This document shows positions 2,577 to 44,038 of a stretch of 44,038 bases of DNA, in pieces; position 1 is the stretch's first letter, and each line of letters starts with the position of its first letter. Under the pieces are notes generated by a model that saw only the letters and a list, made by a program, of their open reading frames with translations, made no database searches and was not told where the DNA came from. The position numbers were made by a program, and so were the translations under genes. Origin of the DNA: Bryobacterales bacterium (GTDB lineage Bacteria; Acidobacteriota; Terriglobia; Bryobacterales; Bryobacteraceae); the NCBI GenBank assembly GCA_025462965.1, contig JAOAPQ010000596.1:1-44038 (forward strand), written 5' to 3'.

Positions 2577-3995
2577 ATGACCTACTTGCTTCCCATCGGC
2601 GGCGAATGGCTTCAAACGGAAACGACGGACACCATTCGCCTCCCATACGACGATTCGCCAATTGCCGAGGTCCCGCAAGGCAACCCCGCCCTGGTCGACC
2701 GGGCCGTCTCCGCGGCTCGGGCCGCCGCCGCTATCCTCGAAAACTGGACGAACTACCAGCGTGCCGAACTCCTCGACCGTATCGCCGCACTCCTGAGAAG
2801 GGATCGCACCGGGTTCGCCAATGCCGTAAGTTCAGAAACCGGCAAACCCATCACCGAAGCGCGTGCCGAAGTGGACCGCGGCCTGCAAACGTTGCTGGCC
2901 TCCTCTATAGCCGCTCGCGAACTGCATGGCGAAGTCGTGCCGATCGATGCGGCGCCCACCGGCGCTGGCCGTCTCGCGATGACCATTCGCCAGCCGCTCG
3001 GCGTGATCGGCATCATCACGCCCTTCAACTTTCCGCTCAATCTGACGCTGCACAAACTCGGCCCCGCGCTTGCCGGCGGCAACGCTGTCGTCCACAAACC
3101 ATCGGAGCAGACGCCGCTCAGCGCGCTTATGCTCGCCCGTATCGTTCAGGAAGCGGGGGCTCCCGCCGGAGCCTACAACGTTGTCACCGGCCCGGGCGAA
3201 ACGGTTGGCTCCGCACTCGTCGAGTCGCCTGGAGTCGACATGATCACCTTCACGGGCAGCGTTCCGGTCGGCCGCGCCATTCGCGCCCGCGCCGGATTGA
3301 AGAAGGTGACACTGGAGCTCGGTGGAAACGGGGCCGTCATTATCGAGCCCGACGCCGATCTGGATGCGGCCGTCCCGCGCGTGGTTCAGGGCGGCTACGG
3401 GTATAGCGGCCAGAGCTGCATTTCGGTGCAGCGTGTCTACGTTCATGAAAGCATCGCCGCAAATTTCCGCGATCGCCTCGTCGCCGCCGTTGAAAAGCTC
3501 AACGTCGGGCACCCTGCTGAGGAGACCAGCCAGATCGCTTCGCTCATCACCGTCCAAGCCGCCGAGCGCGTCGAGCAGTGGACCCGGCAGGCCGCGCAAG
3601 CGGGAGCGAAGATCTTGACGGGCGGAGACCGCACCCGAGCCACGATCCGTCCGGGCATCCTCACCGAAGTCCCGGAGGACTCGCGATTCATGCGCGAGGA
3701 GCTTTTCGGCCCGCTCGTCGCTGTGAACGCCTATCGCGATCTCGATCGCGCCATCGAACTGGTCAACGGCACTTCCTACGGACTTCAGGCGGGCATCTAC
3801 ACGCAGCACTTGCAGCGGGCATTCCAGGCCGCGCAAAAGATCCGGGCGGGCGGCGTCCTGATCAACGACGTACCCACCTTCCGCGCCGACCTCATGCCCT
3901 ACGGCGGCACCAAGGAAAGCGGCCTGGGCCGCGAAGGCCCGCGCTATGCCGTCCAGGAAATGACGGAGCCGAAACTAATCTGCTGGCACGCATAG
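2577..3995 (+). CDS. Aldehyde dehydrogenase family protein
   Basis: ALDH motifs: PFNFPLNLTLHKLGPALAGGNAVVHKPSEQTP, FTGSVPVGRAI, LELGGNGAVI (Glu), YSGQSCISVQRVYV (catalytic Cys), EELFGPLVAV. Confidence 0.95.
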   Translation: MTYLLPIGGEWLQTETTDTIRLPYDDSPIAEVPQGNPALVDRAVSAARAAAAILENWTNYQRAELLDRIAALLRRDRTGFANAVSSETGKPITEARAEVDRGLQTLLASSIAARELHGEVVPIDAAPTGAGRLAMTIRQPLGVIGIITPFNFPLNLTLHKLGPALAGGNAVVHKPSEQTPLSALMLARIVQEAGAPAGAYNVVTGPGETVGSALVESPGVDMITFTGSVPVGRAIRARAGLKKVTLELGGNGAVIIEPDADLDAAVPRVVQGGYGYSGQSCISVQRVYVHESIAANFRDRLVAAVEKLNVGHPAEETSQIASLITVQAAERVEQWTRQAAQAGAKILTGGDRTRATIRPGILTEVPEDSRFMREELFGPLVAVNAYRDLDRAIELVNGTSYGLQAGIYTQHLQRAFQAAQKIRAGGVLINDVPTFRADLMPYGGTKESGLGREGPRYAVQEMTEPKLICWHA

Positions 3996-36804: not shown

Positions 36805-37745
36805 GAATAAGCCTCCCTTACGTCCGACTCATGGTGACCATCGGGATTGGCGGAGCACTCTCGACAACTGCCCAAACCGTTACGGAGGGCGGGCCCCGCT
36901 GCACTTGCGTGGACGGACGGAACGTCCAGGCCGGCGTGGTCAGCTACAACCAGAACAGCGACCGTGAAACGATTACCCGGGTCGAGCCGGAATTGAGCAA
37001 TCCCGCGGGGCGATGTGGAGCGGTGTGGATCGGGAGCACGGAGATTCGCCCAATTGGCACTCCCTACGATTTCCATCTCGAGCGTACAGCCGTCAGAGAG
37101 CGACGGATCTATGGATGCGACTACCCAACCGAACGCTTTTCGAGTCGAACGAAGACCTATCAGTTCGCGTTCGACACGAATTCTGTACCCATTCGCGAGA
37201 CTGGCAACCTCCCTCCGCCGGGATCTCCCCGAACGCTGGATGCGGACCCGAAGTCGAAATCAAACGGGAATCTTTGGAACTCGATTGCGGAAATCCCGGC
37301 TGAAGCCAAAGGAAACCGGAAAACCCCCTCGCAAATCGATTCGACACGGGAATTCAATCGAACGTCGTGGATACTCGCCCGCACTGAGATCAAGGCCCAT
37401 TATGTGGCAATAGTGAAGGACGGTTATCAGCGCGAAAGGCTGGTACCGCTGAAGAAAACCCGAGCGGTCAAGGCCGGCGAGTTGGGCCAGATCGAAGCCG
37501 TGAGCGCGGGCCGGGCGATTGTGCGCTTCTATGAGGGAAGTAGAACCGGAGAAGGAAGGGGAACCGGAAAAGTTACCGGGGCCGTGAACTCACTCAGGCG
37601 TTGGTATGACAGGACCGGTGGGCCTTACCGGGAAACCGACGATGTTCTGTATACGCCACGTAGAGCATCGATTCTCGAAGTGTCTCTGGACGACATCATC
37701 GAGGTCAACGACTATCTGGATCAGAAACAAAGAGACCGGACATGA
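36789..37745 (+). CDS. Uncharacterised secreted protein with N-terminal CxCxDGR domain (paralog B)
   Basis: N-terminal leader, then PRCTCVDGRNVQAGVVSYNQNSDRETITRVEP, similar to paralog A; RBS gggag. Confidence 0.75.
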   Translation: MAKKLRISLPYVRLMVTIGIGGALSTTAQTVTEGGPRCTCVDGRNVQAGVVSYNQNSDRETITRVEPELSNPAGRCGAVWIGSTEIRPIGTPYDFHLERTAVRERRIYGCDYPTERFSSRTKTYQFAFDTNSVPIRETGNLPPPGSPRTLDADPKSKSNGNLWNSIAEIPAEAKGNRKTPSQIDSTREFNRTSWILARTEIKAHYVAIVKDGYQRERLVPLKKTRAVKAGELGQIEAVSAGRAIVRFYEGSRTGEGRGTGKVTGAVNSLRRWYDRTGGPYRETDDVLYTPRRASILEVSLDDIIEVNDYLDQKQRDRT

Positions 37746-37772
37746 TCGCGCAGCAGCAGAGGAGTTGAGCGG

Positions 37773-39479
37773 ATGAAGCAGGAAATCGAGTGGATGACCG
37801 GGAAGCGTGCCCTGCTGGCGGTCTTTCTTTGGGCCGTCGCGGTTGCGGCTACGACTGTACCTCTCTCATCACAGTCAACAGAGCAACGCGTTGCGGCCGG
37901 AGCGTCTCGAAGCGCAGATTTCAAATCCGACGTCCGGGAGGTTTCGGTGGTCTTCCGGGTTGTCGACAAGCAGAACCAGCCGGTTTCCGGAATCACTCCG
38001 GCTGACATTCAGATCGATGATCAAGGGATCTCGCGCAACATCACCAGTTTCCGGGCCAATGTCGGGAACGCACAGGTGGTCATTCTTCCCGATGTCAGCG
38101 GGAGCATGGGACCGGTTCTGGAGCCTCTGCAGGGAGCTCTTTTCACTTTTGCCGACATAGTCTCGAAAGATTTCAATCACGAACCTGGCGATATTCTGCT
38201 CAGCCTGGTTCCTTTTGGCGATACCGCGACGGTGCTCATCGACCGAACGTCAAATCCGATGGAGTTCAAGGACGCTGTGCGACGTCTGCGCCCGAGCGGA
38301 CGCACCGCTCTGGTCGATTCCGTCATGGCGACCTTGCTGAATGCGTTCGGCAGCAAAGACATCTCCAGTCCGCCAAAACCCACCGCAGCCTCCGGTCAGG
38401 ATGACGACAGCCCGATACCCAGCCGGTATCGTCCCAGGCGGCCGGCGGCTGGAGTCGTGGGCGATAAGCGATCCAAGTTTCTGATCATCTTCACTGACGC
38501 CGGGGAAAACGCGTCGAGTCATGCGTGGTCCAATATTGCGTCCGCGATGCTGGGCAGGGACATCGTAATTTACGCGGTTGAGTTTGATACCGGTTCGCCC
38601 GACAGTAATTTTCCAATGCTTTCAAAAATCGCGCTCCAATCGGGAGGTAAAGTCTACCGGGCCAGGATGGATAACCTTGAGAGTCTTTACTCCGAAATTG
38701 CGACGGATATCCGCAGCCACTATCAATTGACGTTCTCCGCCGGCGATGTCGAGAATCCTCGCATCTGGCGGACAATACGTCTTTCGACGAAGCGCCCGGG
38801 CGTTACGCTCTTCGCGCGAACCGGATATTGCCCCGAGACGCCCTGCCAGAAGGCGGATGGAACCTTTGCCGGCGGACAACCGAAAACCTGGAATGAGGTG
38901 CTGGCTATCAGCCGCGATCCAGGCGTTATCTTCTCTGTCCGGCAGCGCCTCCAGGACGTGCAGTTTGAGTACACAGCGGAAACCGAGAGAATCATTAAGG
39001 ACCTCGCAAACGATCCTCTGCTGATTGAGAAAGTCTGGAGTTCCGACGGAAAGGGTTCCGGCAAGGTTGATTCCTCACGATTCGTAGCCCGCAGGGCCGG
39101 CGGCGGGAATCGCCTGGTTGGTATAGACACCGAGGTCTGTGGGATCACAGTGGATCCTGAGACCAATTCGTTTCCGCAGCCCCGGATAGCCAGTGACCCT
39201 TCATCAGCACCTTCCGGTGAGCGGAAGTTTACCGTGCTCAATCCCGAGATCCGGATTGCTCGAAGGCCCGGCGAGAAGGAGGTGTCGGGCTCCGTGGAAA
39301 GCGCCTATTTCCAATCGCAGGCGATCTTTTACCTGAAAGACCGTTCCGGCCGGATCCCGTCGCGCATTCGCGTCCAGTGCAATCGACCGCATTTCCTGAT
39401 AGGGGACGATCTCGTTCAGTTTTCTTTGCAGGCGGTGGAAAACGGGTTGAAGGTCCGATCCGGGGCGCGGCGGGACTGA
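37773..39479 (+). CDS. VWFA-related acidobacterial domain protein (TIGR03436-like)
   Basis: DVREVSVVFRVVDKQNQPVSGITPADIQIDDQGISRNITSFR..., MIDAS DVSGSMG, FADIVS...DTATVLIDRTSNP, SEIATDIRSHYQLTF; RBS gaggag. Confidence 0.88.
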   Translation: MKQEIEWMTGKRALLAVFLWAVAVAATTVPLSSQSTEQRVAAGASRSADFKSDVREVSVVFRVVDKQNQPVSGITPADIQIDDQGISRNITSFRANVGNAQVVILPDVSGSMGPVLEPLQGALFTFADIVSKDFNHEPGDILLSLVPFGDTATVLIDRTSNPMEFKDAVRRLRPSGRTALVDSVMATLLNAFGSKDISSPPKPTAASGQDDDSPIPSRYRPRRPAAGVVGDKRSKFLIIFTDAGENASSHAWSNIASAMLGRDIVIYAVEFDTGSPDSNFPMLSKIALQSGGKVYRARMDNLESLYSEIATDIRSHYQLTFSAGDVENPRIWRTIRLSTKRPGVTLFARTGYCPETPCQKADGTFAGGQPKTWNEVLAISRDPGVIFSVRQRLQDVQFEYTAETERIIKDLANDPLLIEKVWSSDGKGSGKVDSSRFVARRAGGGNRLVGIDTEVCGITVDPETNSFPQPRIASDPSSAPSGERKFTVLNPEIRIARRPGEKEVSGSVESAYFQSQAIFYLKDRSGRIPSRIRVQCNRPHFLIGDDLVQFSLQAVENGLKVRSGARRD

Positions 39480-39617
39480 TGAAGCAGCGACGTCGGCCTC
39501 GCGACCGCAGGCACTCATCCGCCGCTATAGTTCAAACTCGCCAAGAACTGTGTCCTTTCGGCAAGGCTCCGTAAGGCGATGAATTCGGGATAATGGCCGA
39601 ATAATGGTCTGCTAACG

Positions 39618-39629
39618 ATTATGCATAAT
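39618..39629. repeat. 12-bp perfect palindrome ATTATGCATAAT
   Basis: Self-complementary; directly abuts the left inverted repeat in otherwise GC-rich DNA. Confidence 0.75.
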
Positions 39630-39659
39630 GGCGAGGTGTCAATAATGAGGAGGAAAGTG
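39625..39659 (+). repeat. Left inverted repeat of a putative recombinase-type mobile unit
   Basis: ATAATGGCGAGGTGTCAATAATGAGGAGGAAAGTG; 28/35 identical to the reverse complement of 43778-43812. Confidence 0.75.
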
Positions 39660-39981
39660 TTGGGCTCCAGATGTGGCTGCGACACTCGCGACTACTGAAT
39701 TTTGGCGCGCCAACGTCTCACGGAGGGGCCCGCAGGCTGTTGGCCGGATGACGAAAGCTGACTTCTGAGGAGTTTTCTCCGCCTCGGTTGCCGAGTTCTT
39801 CCTGGATAAACGCTGCGCCGTCAGGGGATGATCTATTCAAACGCACCGCCCGGCCGACAGCCGAGTACCTTGCGCACTCAACCGAATACTGACTTGTGCC
39901 ATTCTCGCCTGCGACTCTCCGACACCGGTGCGCTGTGCGGATGGCCTCGACTGCAAAACGGCTCCATTTCCCTGTTGATTT

Positions 39982-40012
39982 CCTACATGGAAATCAGTTA
40001 CACTCCTGTAGG
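39982..40012. promoter_or_regulatory. Candidate PadR operator: CCTACA-N19-TGTAGG immediately upstream of the padR start
   Basis: Perfect 6-bp inverted arms at 39982-39987 and 40007-40012, ending 7 bp before the proposed GTG start at 40020. Confidence 0.4.
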
Positions 40013-40019
40013 TTCCCAA

Positions 40020-40391
40020 GTGAAAAACGATCGTACGGACAAAGCCGATGTTTTCCAGGGTACTCTTATGCTCCTTGTTCTACGGACTTTGGAGGCTCTT
40101 GGGCCACTTCACGGGTACGGGATCGCGCGCCGAATCGAACAAATCAGCCAGGACCTTCTGCAACTCAACCAGGGCACAATGTACCCTGCTCTCCTTCGAA
40201 TGGAGCAAGAAGGATGGGTTTCGTCCCGGTGGGGAGCCTCGGAAAAGAATCGCAAGGCAAAGTTCTACTCGATCACCGCGGCCGGACGGAAGCAACTGGC
40301 GCAGGAAACGAAGGACTGGCATCGCATGTCTTCGACCATCAATCGATTCCTGGGGCCGATCCGGGATCTTGTGCCAGAGAAGACCTCATGA
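40020..40391 (+). CDS. PadR family transcriptional regulator (acidobacterial type, TIGR03433-like)
   Basis: VKNDRTDKADVFQGTLMLLVLRTLEALGPLHGYGIARRIEQISQDLLQLNQGTMYPALLRMEQEGWVSSRWG.... GTG start at 40020 chosen over the ORF-track start at 39828; ATGA overlap with the permease gene. Confidence 0.9.
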   Translation: MKNDRTDKADVFQGTLMLLVLRTLEALGPLHGYGIARRIEQISQDLLQLNQGTMYPALLRMEQEGWVSSRWGASEKNRKAKFYSITAAGRKQLAQETKDWHRMSSTINRFLGPIRDLVPEKTS

Positions 40392-43057
40392 GTCGGCGGA
40401 GTGTATTTGCCGCACGGTTCCGAGGCTTGTTTGTCCGAAATCGGCTGGACCGCGAAATGGACGACGAGGTTCGCTTTCATCTGGAAATGCAGGCTGAGGA
40501 CAATCTGCGAACAGGGATGAGTCCTCTCGATGCACACTATGCCGCGATACGCAGCTTTGGAGGAGTGGAGCCGATGAGGGAAGTCTACAGGGAGCAGCGG
40601 AGCCTTCCGCTGATCGAAAGGACGCTCCAGGACGTTCGCTATGCGCTTCGAACGATGCGTGGGAGTCCCGCGTTTACAGTTGCGGCCATTCTGACCCTGG
40701 CGCTGGGTATAGGCGCCAATACCACGATTTTCCATGTGCTCGACGTGGTTGTGTTGCGGCCGCTCCCGGTGCGCGATCCAGATGGATTGGTCCTCCTGCA
40801 AGGTGTCAGCAACGGCAAGCAGGTGGGCTTCAGTTATCCGTTGTTCCGTGAGATGTCGGCGCGTCAACACGAGGTGGAGGGCATGTTCGCGGCATACGAC
40901 TTTCCCGTTCATACCGCGACGCTTCAGGATTCCGTTACGTTGAGTCCGGTGAGCGCGCGTCTGGCCACAGGTGGATACTTCCGGCTACTCGGCGTTAACG
41001 CGCGACCCGGCCGCACATTTACTGAGGAGGACGACGCGCCATCGGCGCAGCCGGTCGCTGTGATCAGTTATGGTTTCTGGCAGCGGGCTTTCGCCGGCAG
41101 AACAGACGCGATCGGGCAGCGGCTGCATATCAACAACACGGTCATCACAGTGGTTGGCGTGACTCCGCCCGAGTTTTTCGGAGAGCGCATGGGATCCGTT
41201 CCCGACGTTTGGCTGCCCATCAGCCTGGCGCGACGCGTAGAGGCGTCTAACTGGCTGGATCAACCGGGTTGGGGACTCCTCTCGCCAATGGCGCGTCTGC
41301 GGCCGGGTATTTCGCGCGAGCAGGCACAGGCAGCGCTCAATGTGCTCTACGCGCAAATGGGCGACATTATGTTCAATGGGGAGAAAACAAAGCAAATCCA
41401 TTTGGATGTGAAGCCGGGCAGCCAGGGAATTCGGGAGATTCGCGAAAAATTCTCAAGTCCGCTCTGGCTGTTGATGGGGATTGTCGGATTGGTGGTTCTA
41501 ATCGCCTGTTGCAATCTGGCCAACCTGCTGCTTGCACGGGGGGAAGCTCGTTCCCACGAGATCGGCGTAAGACTGGCGCTGGGTGCAGGGCGAACCCGGC
41601 TGGTACGGCAGTTGCTTACGGAGAGCCTGCTGCTCGCTATTCTCGGGGGCCTCCTGGGAATCGGTTTCGCGGTGTTTGGCTCGCGCGAGTTGGTTGCGTT
41701 AGCTTCAAGCGGGCCTGGATCGGGAATTGCGCTTCAAATGGATTGGCGCGTCCTCTGCTTCACGGCCGGGCTTTGCGTTCTTACGACCGGTATCTTCGGG
41801 CTCGCGCCCGCGTTGTTGGCCACCAAAATCGATTTGCAGCCAACTCTGCAGGCTAACCGGCGGACGCAGAGCGGAAGCCATTCGGCGCAGGTGTTGGCAA
41901 AGGGGTTTGTGGTTGCACAGGTTGCGGTTTCACTATTGCTTTTAGCCGGCGCTTCCGTTCTGGTGCGATCGTTCTGGAATCTGACACATCAGGATTTTGG
42001 GTATCGGCAAGAGGGGGTACTGATGCTGCGGTTGCCATTCGATATCTCCAATTTCAGACAGACGAGGAATGCAGCTTTTTGCGACACGATTGTGCAGCGA
42101 ATGAGCAAACTTTCCGGTGTGAGGTCGGCGGCATTGGCGGGCTCAGGGCTACTCGACAGCCTGCAGAAGATGGGAAAGGTGGCTCTTCCGAATCGCGTTC
42201 CGCAGGGTGGCGATCAGGCGCGATACGTCTCTGTGTCACCGCATTATTTTGAGGCCATGGGTATTCCGATCATTGCGGGCCGTCCAATCACGGACCGGGA
42301 CCGCATCGCAACGGAGAGGGTTGCGGTGATCAGCGAAACGGCCTCACGCCGGCTTTTTGGGTCTGATAATCCGGCGGGACTTTTCTTTTCAGACGGAGAT
42401 AGCTTCGATGCGAAACATTCGATTCAGATTGTCGGAGTGGCGCGTGATGTACGATTCTCGGGACCTCGGGAGCCATTCGGAGTCGTAGTATTTGAGGCTC
42501 TGTGGCAGTCGCCGGCGCCGCTCGGTGCGGTGGTGTTGCGGACGGCGGGAGACCCAAAGCTGTTAGCGAAGCCAGCTCTGGCTGCTCTGCGCGAGGTTGC
42601 GCCCAACCTGAAAATTACGGGCGCCCTGTCTCTGACGGAACTCCTGGAATCAAAGCTGGGACAAGAACACATGATGGCTCTGCTCTCGGGCGCCTTCGGG
42701 ACGCTGGCGCTCCTGCTGGCAGGTGTCGGTCTCTACGGAGTTATAGCCTACGCGGTGGAGCGACGCACGAAGGAGATTGGTGTACGACTGGCGCTCGGCG
42801 CGAACCAGCGCCAGGTCATCGTGTTGTTGCTGCGCGAACTCCTGCTCTTGGTCTCGATGGGCCTGGCCATTGGGGGCGCCGCGATCCTCGTGCTGGGACC
42901 GTGGGTGCGGGCTCTGCTCTTCGGCCTCAGTCCGTACGATCCGATCATGTTGAGTCTTTCGGGCGCGCTGCTGGTGACAGTGGCGTTGTTCGCGGGATAT
43001 CTTGCCACCCATCGTGCCGCGCGGCTTAACCCTCTCGATGCGCTGCGTCAGGGGTGA
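40388..43057 (+). CDS. ADOP-type ABC transporter permease (acidobacterial duplicated orphan permease; two FtsX/MacB-like domains)
   Basis: MSRRSVFAARFRGLFVRNRLDREMDDEVRFHLEMQAEDNLRTGMSPLDAHYAAIRSFGGVEPMRE, LQDVRYALRTMRGSPAFTVAAILTLALGIGANTTIFHVLDVVVLRPLPV, two GEARSHEIGVRLALGAGRTRLVRQLL / ERRTKEIGVRLALGANQRQVIVLLL blocks. The 39896 ORF start is too far upstream. Confidence 0.95.
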   Translation: MSRRSVFAARFRGLFVRNRLDREMDDEVRFHLEMQAEDNLRTGMSPLDAHYAAIRSFGGVEPMREVYREQRSLPLIERTLQDVRYALRTMRGSPAFTVAAILTLALGIGANTTIFHVLDVVVLRPLPVRDPDGLVLLQGVSNGKQVGFSYPLFREMSARQHEVEGMFAAYDFPVHTATLQDSVTLSPVSARLATGGYFRLLGVNARPGRTFTEEDDAPSAQPVAVISYGFWQRAFAGRTDAIGQRLHINNTVITVVGVTPPEFFGERMGSVPDVWLPISLARRVEASNWLDQPGWGLLSPMARLRPGISREQAQAALNVLYAQMGDIMFNGEKTKQIHLDVKPGSQGIREIREKFSSPLWLLMGIVGLVVLIACCNLANLLLARGEARSHEIGVRLALGAGRTRLVRQLLTESLLLAILGGLLGIGFAVFGSRELVALASSGPGSGIALQMDWRVLCFTAGLCVLTTGIFGLAPALLATKIDLQPTLQANRRTQSGSHSAQVLAKGFVVAQVAVSLLLLAGASVLVRSFWNLTHQDFGYRQEGVLMLRLPFDISNFRQTRNAAFCDTIVQRMSKLSGVRSAALAGSGLLDSLQKMGKVALPNRVPQGGDQARYVSVSPHYFEAMGIPIIAGRPITDRDRIATERVAVISETASRRLFGSDNPAGLFFSDGDSFDAKHSIQIVGVARDVRFSGPREPFGVVVFEALWQSPAPLGAVVLRTAGDPKLLAKPALAALREVAPNLKITGALSLTELLESKLGQEHMMALLSGAFGTLALLLAGVGLYGVIAYAVERRTKEIGVRLALGANQRQVIVLLLRELLLLVSMGLAIGGAAILVLGPWVRALLFGLSPYDPIMLSLSGALLVTVALFAGYLATHRAARLNPLDALRQG

Positions 43058-43095
43058 GAGTCGTCTGACACCCGGCGAAGTGTTAGAAGCGAATC

Positions 43096-43716
43096 GTGGT
43101 TCGCCGCCGAAAGTTTAGAGCGCGCGGAAAATTGCTCCTGCCCACGTGCAACACCAGACACGTGCTGTTGGCGGTCCTTTACAACACCGGTGCCCGCATT
43201 CAGGAGGCGCTGGATCTCTCTCCCCAAGCCGTTCGCTGGGAATCGCCGTTCCAGGTTCGACTGCGCGGTAAAGGGCGAAAAGAGCGGCGCTGCCCACTCT
43301 GGCCCGAGACAATCGAACTGCTGAAGGCTCTTTTGAAACGAAAACCTCGCGGGGAGGGCGAACCCATCTTCGTGAATCGGTATGGACATCCTCTTAAGGC
43401 TTCGGGCGTTCGCTTCAAGTTGAAGCAGTATGTGGAGGCCGCAGCCCGGAAGGTACCCTCACTCGCCGGCAAGCGAGTGTCCCCGCATAAGTTTCGACAC
43501 GCCACTGCGGTAAGTCTTGTCGCTGCAGGTGTTGACGTGACCGTGATACGTGACTGGCTGGGACATGAAAGCCTCGACACAACAAACATCTACGCCAGGG
43601 CGAGTTTGGAAACCAAACGCAAGGCTCTGGAGAAAGTAGATTCTTCCGCGCGACCGGCCAAACCTCCACGATGGAAACGGGAGGTGGAGCTGTTGGAGTG
43701 GCTCGACTCGCTCTAA
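43096..43716 (+). CDS. Short tyrosine recombinase/integrase catalytic domain; N-terminal DNA-binding domain apparently missing
   Basis: Catalytic signature present: TGARIQEAL (R), GKGRKERRCPLW (K), HKFRH (HxxR), LGHESLDTTNIYA (H, Y). Only ~35 aa precede the catalytic domain. Confidence 0.88.
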   Translation: MVRRRKFRARGKLLLPTCNTRHVLLAVLYNTGARIQEALDLSPQAVRWESPFQVRLRGKGRKERRCPLWPETIELLKALLKRKPRGEGEPIFVNRYGHPLKASGVRFKLKQYVEAAARKVPSLAGKRVSPHKFRHATAVSLVAAGVDVTVIRDWLGHESLDTTNIYARASLETKRKALEKVDSSARPAKPPRWKREVELLEWLDSL

Positions 43717-43746
43717 GAACACCGGAAATTATCGAGTGGTACACTT

Positions 43747-43778
43747 GGCCGGGCACCTGCACACACAGATGTCCGGCC
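43747..43778 (+). terminator. Candidate intrinsic terminator downstream of recombinase
   Basis: Stem GGCCGGGCA (43747-43755) / TGTCCGGCC (43770-43778), 9 pairs with one G-U, followed by tctttcct. Confidence 0.45.
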
Positions 43779-43812
43779 TCTTTCCTCGCCATTATTGAAA
43801 CCTCGTCATGAG
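43778..43812 (-). repeat. Right inverted repeat of the putative mobile unit
   Basis: Reverse complement CTCATGACGAGGTTTCAATAATGGCGAGGAAAGAG matches the left repeat at 28/35 positions. Confidence 0.75.
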
Positions 43813-44038
43813 CTTAAAGGGCTATTCGGTGAACTGGGTGCCTGTGGAGTCGAGTGTTTTCACTGCGGCCGCGTACCTCAGTAGCAGGCATTTGCTTTAT
43901 TTGAGGTTCCAGAGTGGCGATGTCTATCGCTACTTCGATTTTCCACCGGAACAGTACGATGAGTTCTTCGCGGGCCGAATCTAAGGGCGGCTATTTCGGT
44001 TACAACATTCGTGACCAGTTCCGTTGCGAACGGGTTTC
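43808..44038 (+). pseudogene. KTSC-domain protein with an apparent +1 frameshift; runs off the window
   Basis: MSLKGYSVNWVPVESSVFTAAAYLSSRHLLYLRFQSGDVYRYFDFPPEQYDEFFAGRI* (stop 43982-43984). Dropping one G of the GGG in gcgggccgaa gives FFAAESKGGYFGYNIRDQFRCERV, the expected KTSC C-terminal half. Confidence 0.75.

Follow-up and report, generated by a model that had tools for sequence, protein, structure and literature searches.

RIT (recombinase-in-trio) elements, built on the three tyrosine-recombinase genes ritA, ritB and ritC, have been described (Van Houdt et al., 2012, PMC3414803), including those of C. metallidurans CH34 (PMC2864759). In the literature consulted, their mobility is without experimental demonstration, and their ends and choice of target are unclear. 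Also relevant here are mobile insertion cassettes (MICs), which derive from insertion sequences, and transporter ISs (PMC3129680), as well as the GInts and the strand-biased circularizing elements (SEs) (PMC5385486, PMC10214605). No RIT MIC was described in the papers within the scope of our literature search, which excluded most subscription papers, the principal survey of RITs (Ricker et al., 2013) among them.

The window analysed here (the whole stretch of 44,038 nucleotides) belongs to a metagenome-derived assembly of a Bryobacterales bacterium (6.9 Mb, 929 contigs, 85% complete). Its positions 39596-43811 are probably an integrated, non-autonomous RIT derivative in which a PadR-ADOP gene pair has replaced ritA and ritB as well as the 5′ portion of ritC. 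The features are given below in window coordinates; the two ends were scored with a matrix built from 10 RIT-end sequences.

37773-39479, + strand: left flanking gene, not part of the element, for a VWA-domain protein; other Bryobacteraceae have homologues (84-86% in G155)
39596-39625, no strand: RIT spacer, present on this side only, a decayed palindrome adjoining the outer edge of the left inverted repeat; 39596-39623 agrees with the JOPF118 spacer at 25/28 positions
39626-39657, + strand: left terminal inverted repeat (RIT end), 48.3 bits
39658-39830, + strand: non-coding left module, ~200 bp; common to contig C642 of the same genome (L009) and contig C54 of RYN_21 (L051), absent from intact RITs
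40020-40391, + strand: PadR regulator, TIGR03433, 145 bits (cut-off 101.8)
40388-43057, + strand: ADOP family duplicated permease, 889 aa, TIGR03434, 826 bits (cut-off 622)
43159-43716, + strand: 3′ part of ritC (RitC residues ~148-333), in a frame open from 43096; 82% amino acid identity to RitC of L045 and 70% to that of L046, 79.5% nucleotide identity to the intact RIT L072
43717-43779, + strand: RIT right subterminal region, co-linear with L072 up to RIT position 3830
43780-43811, - strand: right terminal inverted repeat (RIT end), 43.8 bits; no palindrome outside
43831-43981, + strand: KTSC-like gene flanking the element on the right and not part of it, starting ~20 bp past the right end; early stop or frameshift at 43982

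The initial annotation had bounded the unit by an inverted repeat, 39625-39659 against the reverse complement of 43778-43812, and the 28 matches that it counted over 35 positions are confirmed. The element reaches slightly further left than annotated, to take in the RIT spacer. This repeat pair tops all inverted repeats found by a repeat search in 37000-44038 (30 nt, 87%). The best 30-nt inverted repeat matches at 26 of 30 positions, as against 20-22 in 12 dinucleotide-Markov simulations of 5 kb of the window, so that the repeat is genuine, well beyond what chance would give. Its two arms are the terminal repeats of a RIT element: RIT-type terminal inverted repeats are present at both element ends, and the best matrix score elsewhere in the window is 18.5 bits. 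Across the 6.9-Mb assembly the end motif (at most 3 mismatches) occurs at only three sites, the two window ends and contig C642, while a reversed-pattern control gives 0 matches. The flanks of the element read ...GGATAATGGCCGAA on the left and AGGGCTATTCGG... on the right. The inner arm of the spacer has decayed, so that the spacer taken alone fails to score as a palindrome; beyond the right end there is nothing resembling a RIT spacer. Read outward-in, the core on the right side is TTAAG, unlike the TTYGG of the JOPF118 sites.

The tyrosine recombinase annotated at 43096-43716 was rightly called as a gene (Phage_integrase, PF00589, 98 bits), but the gene is incomplete. RitC homology in its 206-aa open frame is confined to residues 22-206 and absent from 1-21; the catalytic domain is complete (R, K, HxxR, H, Y) and the N-terminal domain absent. 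The closest relatives that a first search gave are parts of open frames of 351 and 419 aa (82% and 70% identity); on their contigs the homologous gene comes last in a row of three tyrosine-recombinase genes, which makes it ritC. Window 43159-43813 aligns with the terminal 655 bp of L072, an intact RIT (L072:3176-3830), at 79.5% nucleotide identity, co-linear to the terminus, with the right end directly downstream of ritC; on the left side the terminal ~32 bp alone match. The window has therefore neither ritA nor ritB, and its ritC is without the initial ~147 codons. The alternative that had been put forward, a RIT-type element whose first recombinases were replaced by PadR-ADOP, is supported by these losses, by the 655 bp on the right and by the two ends. 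Of the trio that defines these elements nothing but the 3′ part of ritC is left, and we therefore call the unit RIT-derived and do not claim membership in RIT proper. Since the split from JOPF118 the window branch of ritC has acquired 30 synonymous and 7 non-synonymous changes, the intact gene 36 and 9 (pairwise dN 0.054, dS 1.23). These substitution counts show a remnant apparently still under purifying selection, at a ratio like that of the intact copy, and so either the truncation is recent or the catalytic domain is still in use.

We scanned 84,980 genomes for the end pattern and found it in JOPF118 and RYN_21 only; the relatives with the same ends are Bryobacteraceae/Solibacter. An intact ritA-ritB-ritC set with window-type ends is found in the Bryobacteraceae MAG JOPF118 (L072), where both ends were scored, and the window repeats match these RIT termini on both sides, a comparison that the initial annotation had suggested. 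G127 has a trio with related ends in which ritA and ritB are split into shorter ORFs. In RYN_21 contig C472 there is a ~0.4-kb miniature RIT derivative (L052:2931-3320), retaining both ends and the last ritC codons and lying in an ISL3-like transposase gene. All 12 related Rhodobacterales plasmid RITs with pairable ends measure ~3.83 kb, a size that leaves no room for cargo, and these plasmid RITs are thus cargo-free. Paracoccus plasmid p1 (L184:5156-7820) has a RIT left end and an intact ritA with a short ORF in the place of ritB, a decayed or rearranged RIT adjoining AbiEii-type genes.

The 45 bp outside every RIT end were listed for an attachment pattern. A 26-32-bp palindrome stands outside one end in JOPF118, in G127 and in the RYN_21 miniature element; where both sides are visible in the intact RITs examined, it is on exactly one side, left or right, never both. 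Four identical RIT copies on Pseudosulfitobacter plasmids share a block that stops at the inverted repeats. Three of them have the palindrome, CGGACGTTATGCGCAGCTGCGCATAACGTCCG, on the right, one of these with a changed inner arm; the fourth has it on the left. The side opposite has the short core only. The hexamer GCCATC beside the repeat in L180 (7087-7115) is the target-side sequence of the identical copy L181 (7087-7095), which suggests a short coupling sequence that, Tn916-like, travels with the element. The JOPF118 insertions hit a conserved NIPFG/NVPFG-coding motif of a helicase-like gene, with the palindrome on the downstream-of-motif side whichever the RIT orientation. More broadly, RITs repeatedly interrupt helicase/methylase-like genes of conjugative elements (L070, L069, L066, L065 and L067 of JOPF118; L182, L183; several Rhodobacterales plasmids). 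The interrupted genes carry the NIPFG motif in JOPF118 and are 'strawberry notch' genes on the plasmids, in two distant phyla; such genes are likely a target preference.

This arrangement is most simply explained by a model in which the three RIT recombinases would excise the element as a circle, the junction of which would hold the two inverted repeats around the palindromic spacer; each arm of that spacer would contain a core of 5-6 bp, the two cores being inverted. Either core could then recombine with a matching target core to give integration, which would leave the whole spacer on one side and the core alone on the other. The window copy would not move by itself; an intact RIT could act on its ends in trans and take PadR-ADOP along as passenger, and the pair may have moved in this way. 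Given an intact RIT, the element would be expected to behave as a mobile insertion cassette. No intact RIT able to act in trans was found in the assembly (85% complete, 929 contigs). This counts against the favoured reading, as do the divergent right-side core and three negative results given below: no second copy of the unit, no empty site, and no right end at the two other left-module loci.

DNA homology of the VWA gene to that of relatives stops at its stop codon, and no RIT, PadR or ADOP unit follows the gene in the relatives' VWA loci. Homologues of the KTSC-like gene occur in 16 genomes (the host's own included), and the three inspected start at an equivalent GTG/ATG. The relatives' DNA beyond the VWA and KTSC genes does not align to the window flanks; an empty site was sought through six VWA loci and through KTSC in the 16 genomes and none was found, the relatives lacking the unit. 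The last 127 bp of the window (43912-44038) are identical to G000:C291:1-127, making C291 the likely continuation, and the KTSC-like gene there has a frameshift or early stop. No second copy of the PadR-ADOP unit was found. The window right end, sought in nine genomes, recurs only in the RYN_21 miniature element. A scan of viral contigs for the end pattern and an Rfam search gave nothing.

Other sites do share the left part of the element. A left-module query matched 3 of 237 family genomes, and the module itself is present only in the window, C642 and RYN_21 C54 copies, which are 71-72% identical over about 230-250 bp, end included. At C642 and C54 it sits behind RIT-type left ends and is followed by unrelated genes, a VOC/glyoxalase gene in C642 and a hypothetical gene in C54. 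All three sites, in two genera, have a RIT-like spacer outside the left end, and the sequence outside that of C642 belongs to the helicase-like gene family into which intact RITs have inserted in JOPF118. A RIT right end was sought in L051 (2.85 kb present) and in C642/L009 (to the contig edge) and none was found, so the passengers there are only putative. The sole stretch of L051 that is syntenic within its genus excludes the element. The left module with its varied contents suggests a ritA-less RIT derivative.

How the pair came to lie between these ends may be read in several ways. It is very unlikely that a resident PadR-ADOP pair came by chance to lie between two solo RIT ends unrelated to each other: C642 and L051 do offer apparent solo left ends, but the window ends face each other correctly, there are only three such ends in the whole 6.9 Mb, and the spacer is on the left only, as it is one-sided in intact RITs, which makes a single integration event likely rather than two solo ends. 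A RIT may instead have integrated first, PadR-ADOP entering later by ordinary recombination that deleted ritA, ritB and the start of ritC. This we regard as a real possibility that falls short of an even chance; it concerns the timing of the cargo alone and leaves the structure the same, and the pair would never have been moved by RIT recombination. It accords with the abundance of ADOP genes in the 6.9 Mb (63 matches), which would be frequent rearrangement partners, with the purifying selection in the ritC remnant (30 against 7 changes), suggestive of recent truncation, and with the lack of a second copy of the cargo unit. Against it, the left module is non-canonical and common to two other insertions that also have no ritA beside the left end, so that the left half was probably ritA-less before landing at the window site. 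That same module at three sites in two genera, each with a RIT-like spacer and each followed by different genes, leads to a stronger version of the favoured reading, the tentative and somewhat doubtful proposal of a MIC-like family of RIT-derived carriers in Bryobacteraceae, with the ~200-bp left module, a variable passenger (PadR-ADOP, glyoxalase, others) and a RIT right end. The internally deleted 0.4-kb element of L052 is an actual case of a RIT derivative that has no recombinase genes, but neither C642, which meets its contig edge, nor the 2.85 kb of L051 supplies the right end. Were such a family real, RITs would be gene-transfer vehicles between Bryobacteraceae, not cargo-free parasites.

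The integrated RIT derivative favoured above does hold PadR-ADOP between RIT ends in place of recombinase genes, and both genes, as first called, score above their curated cut-offs. The initial annotation had gone further, proposing that a mobile unit of this kind may spread the pair and could help explain its expansion; we consider this extremely improbable. The host genome has 63 ADOP matches in 6.95 Mb and three RIT-type end sites, and the two coincide at the window locus only. No RIT ends or ritC were found at the ~20 closest ADOP loci of other genomes, so that the expected flanking of other PadR-ADOP loci by the same ends and a recombinase did not materialize. ADOP lies within 1.5 kb at 1 of 29 ritC-like loci; from the density of ADOP genes about 1.5 would be predicted (an estimate), and the adjacency is compatible with chance capture. 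There are intact RITs that have the same ends but lack ADOP, an observation that the initial annotation had listed as refuting dissemination, and RITs as a rule carry no cargo. In favour of dissemination are the one pair between RIT ends, a truncated ritC beside an ADOP gene on the opposite strand in G070 (L018/L047) and a decayed ADOP tail inside L051. In the G070 case (contig C36, L047:4121-4465) the 5′-truncated ritC appears fused to a RIT-like left end and is tail-to-tail with the ADOP gene. The L051 tail (1752-1940), a decayed ADOP C-terminus ~0.9 kb inside the RYN_21 C54 left end, has the same orientation relative to that end as in the window and is possibly there by chance. The closest ADOP, 57% identical, is in G127 (genus g45), and the genus with the flanking VWA gene in common (84-86%) gave no close match, making the pair patchy. 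GC and GC3 of PadR, ADOP and ritC do not depart from those of the neighbouring VWA gene. A literature search on PadR/ADOP expansion gave nothing on point. What this says about ADOP biology is mostly negative, in that the RIT route does not account for the expansion.

The window is a single cargo-bearing case, real and unusual, and it indicates that ordinary cellular genes can be bracketed by RIT ends. The comparison of RITs also yields a testable attachment model, comprising a one-sided palindromic spacer, two inverted cores, a short coupling sequence and a helicase/methylase target preference. Like described RIT elements, the unit has ~30 bp terminal inverted repeats, a palindrome overlapping an end region and RitC homology at the right end; unlike them, it is without ritA, ritB and 5′ ritC and has PadR-ADOP and a different left module. 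GInts and SEs resemble RITs as integrative elements with several tyrosine recombinases, and the SE circle carries 6-bp flank sequence, for which the 6-nt coupling sequence of the RIT copies suggests a counterpart. They differ from RITs and from the window unit in having an extra fourth gene, large cargo and different recombinase families. As in MICs, element ends flank passenger genes in the place of the recombinase and could in principle be mobilised in trans; unlike MICs, the window unit comes from a three-tyrosine-recombinase element and has kept part of one recombinase.
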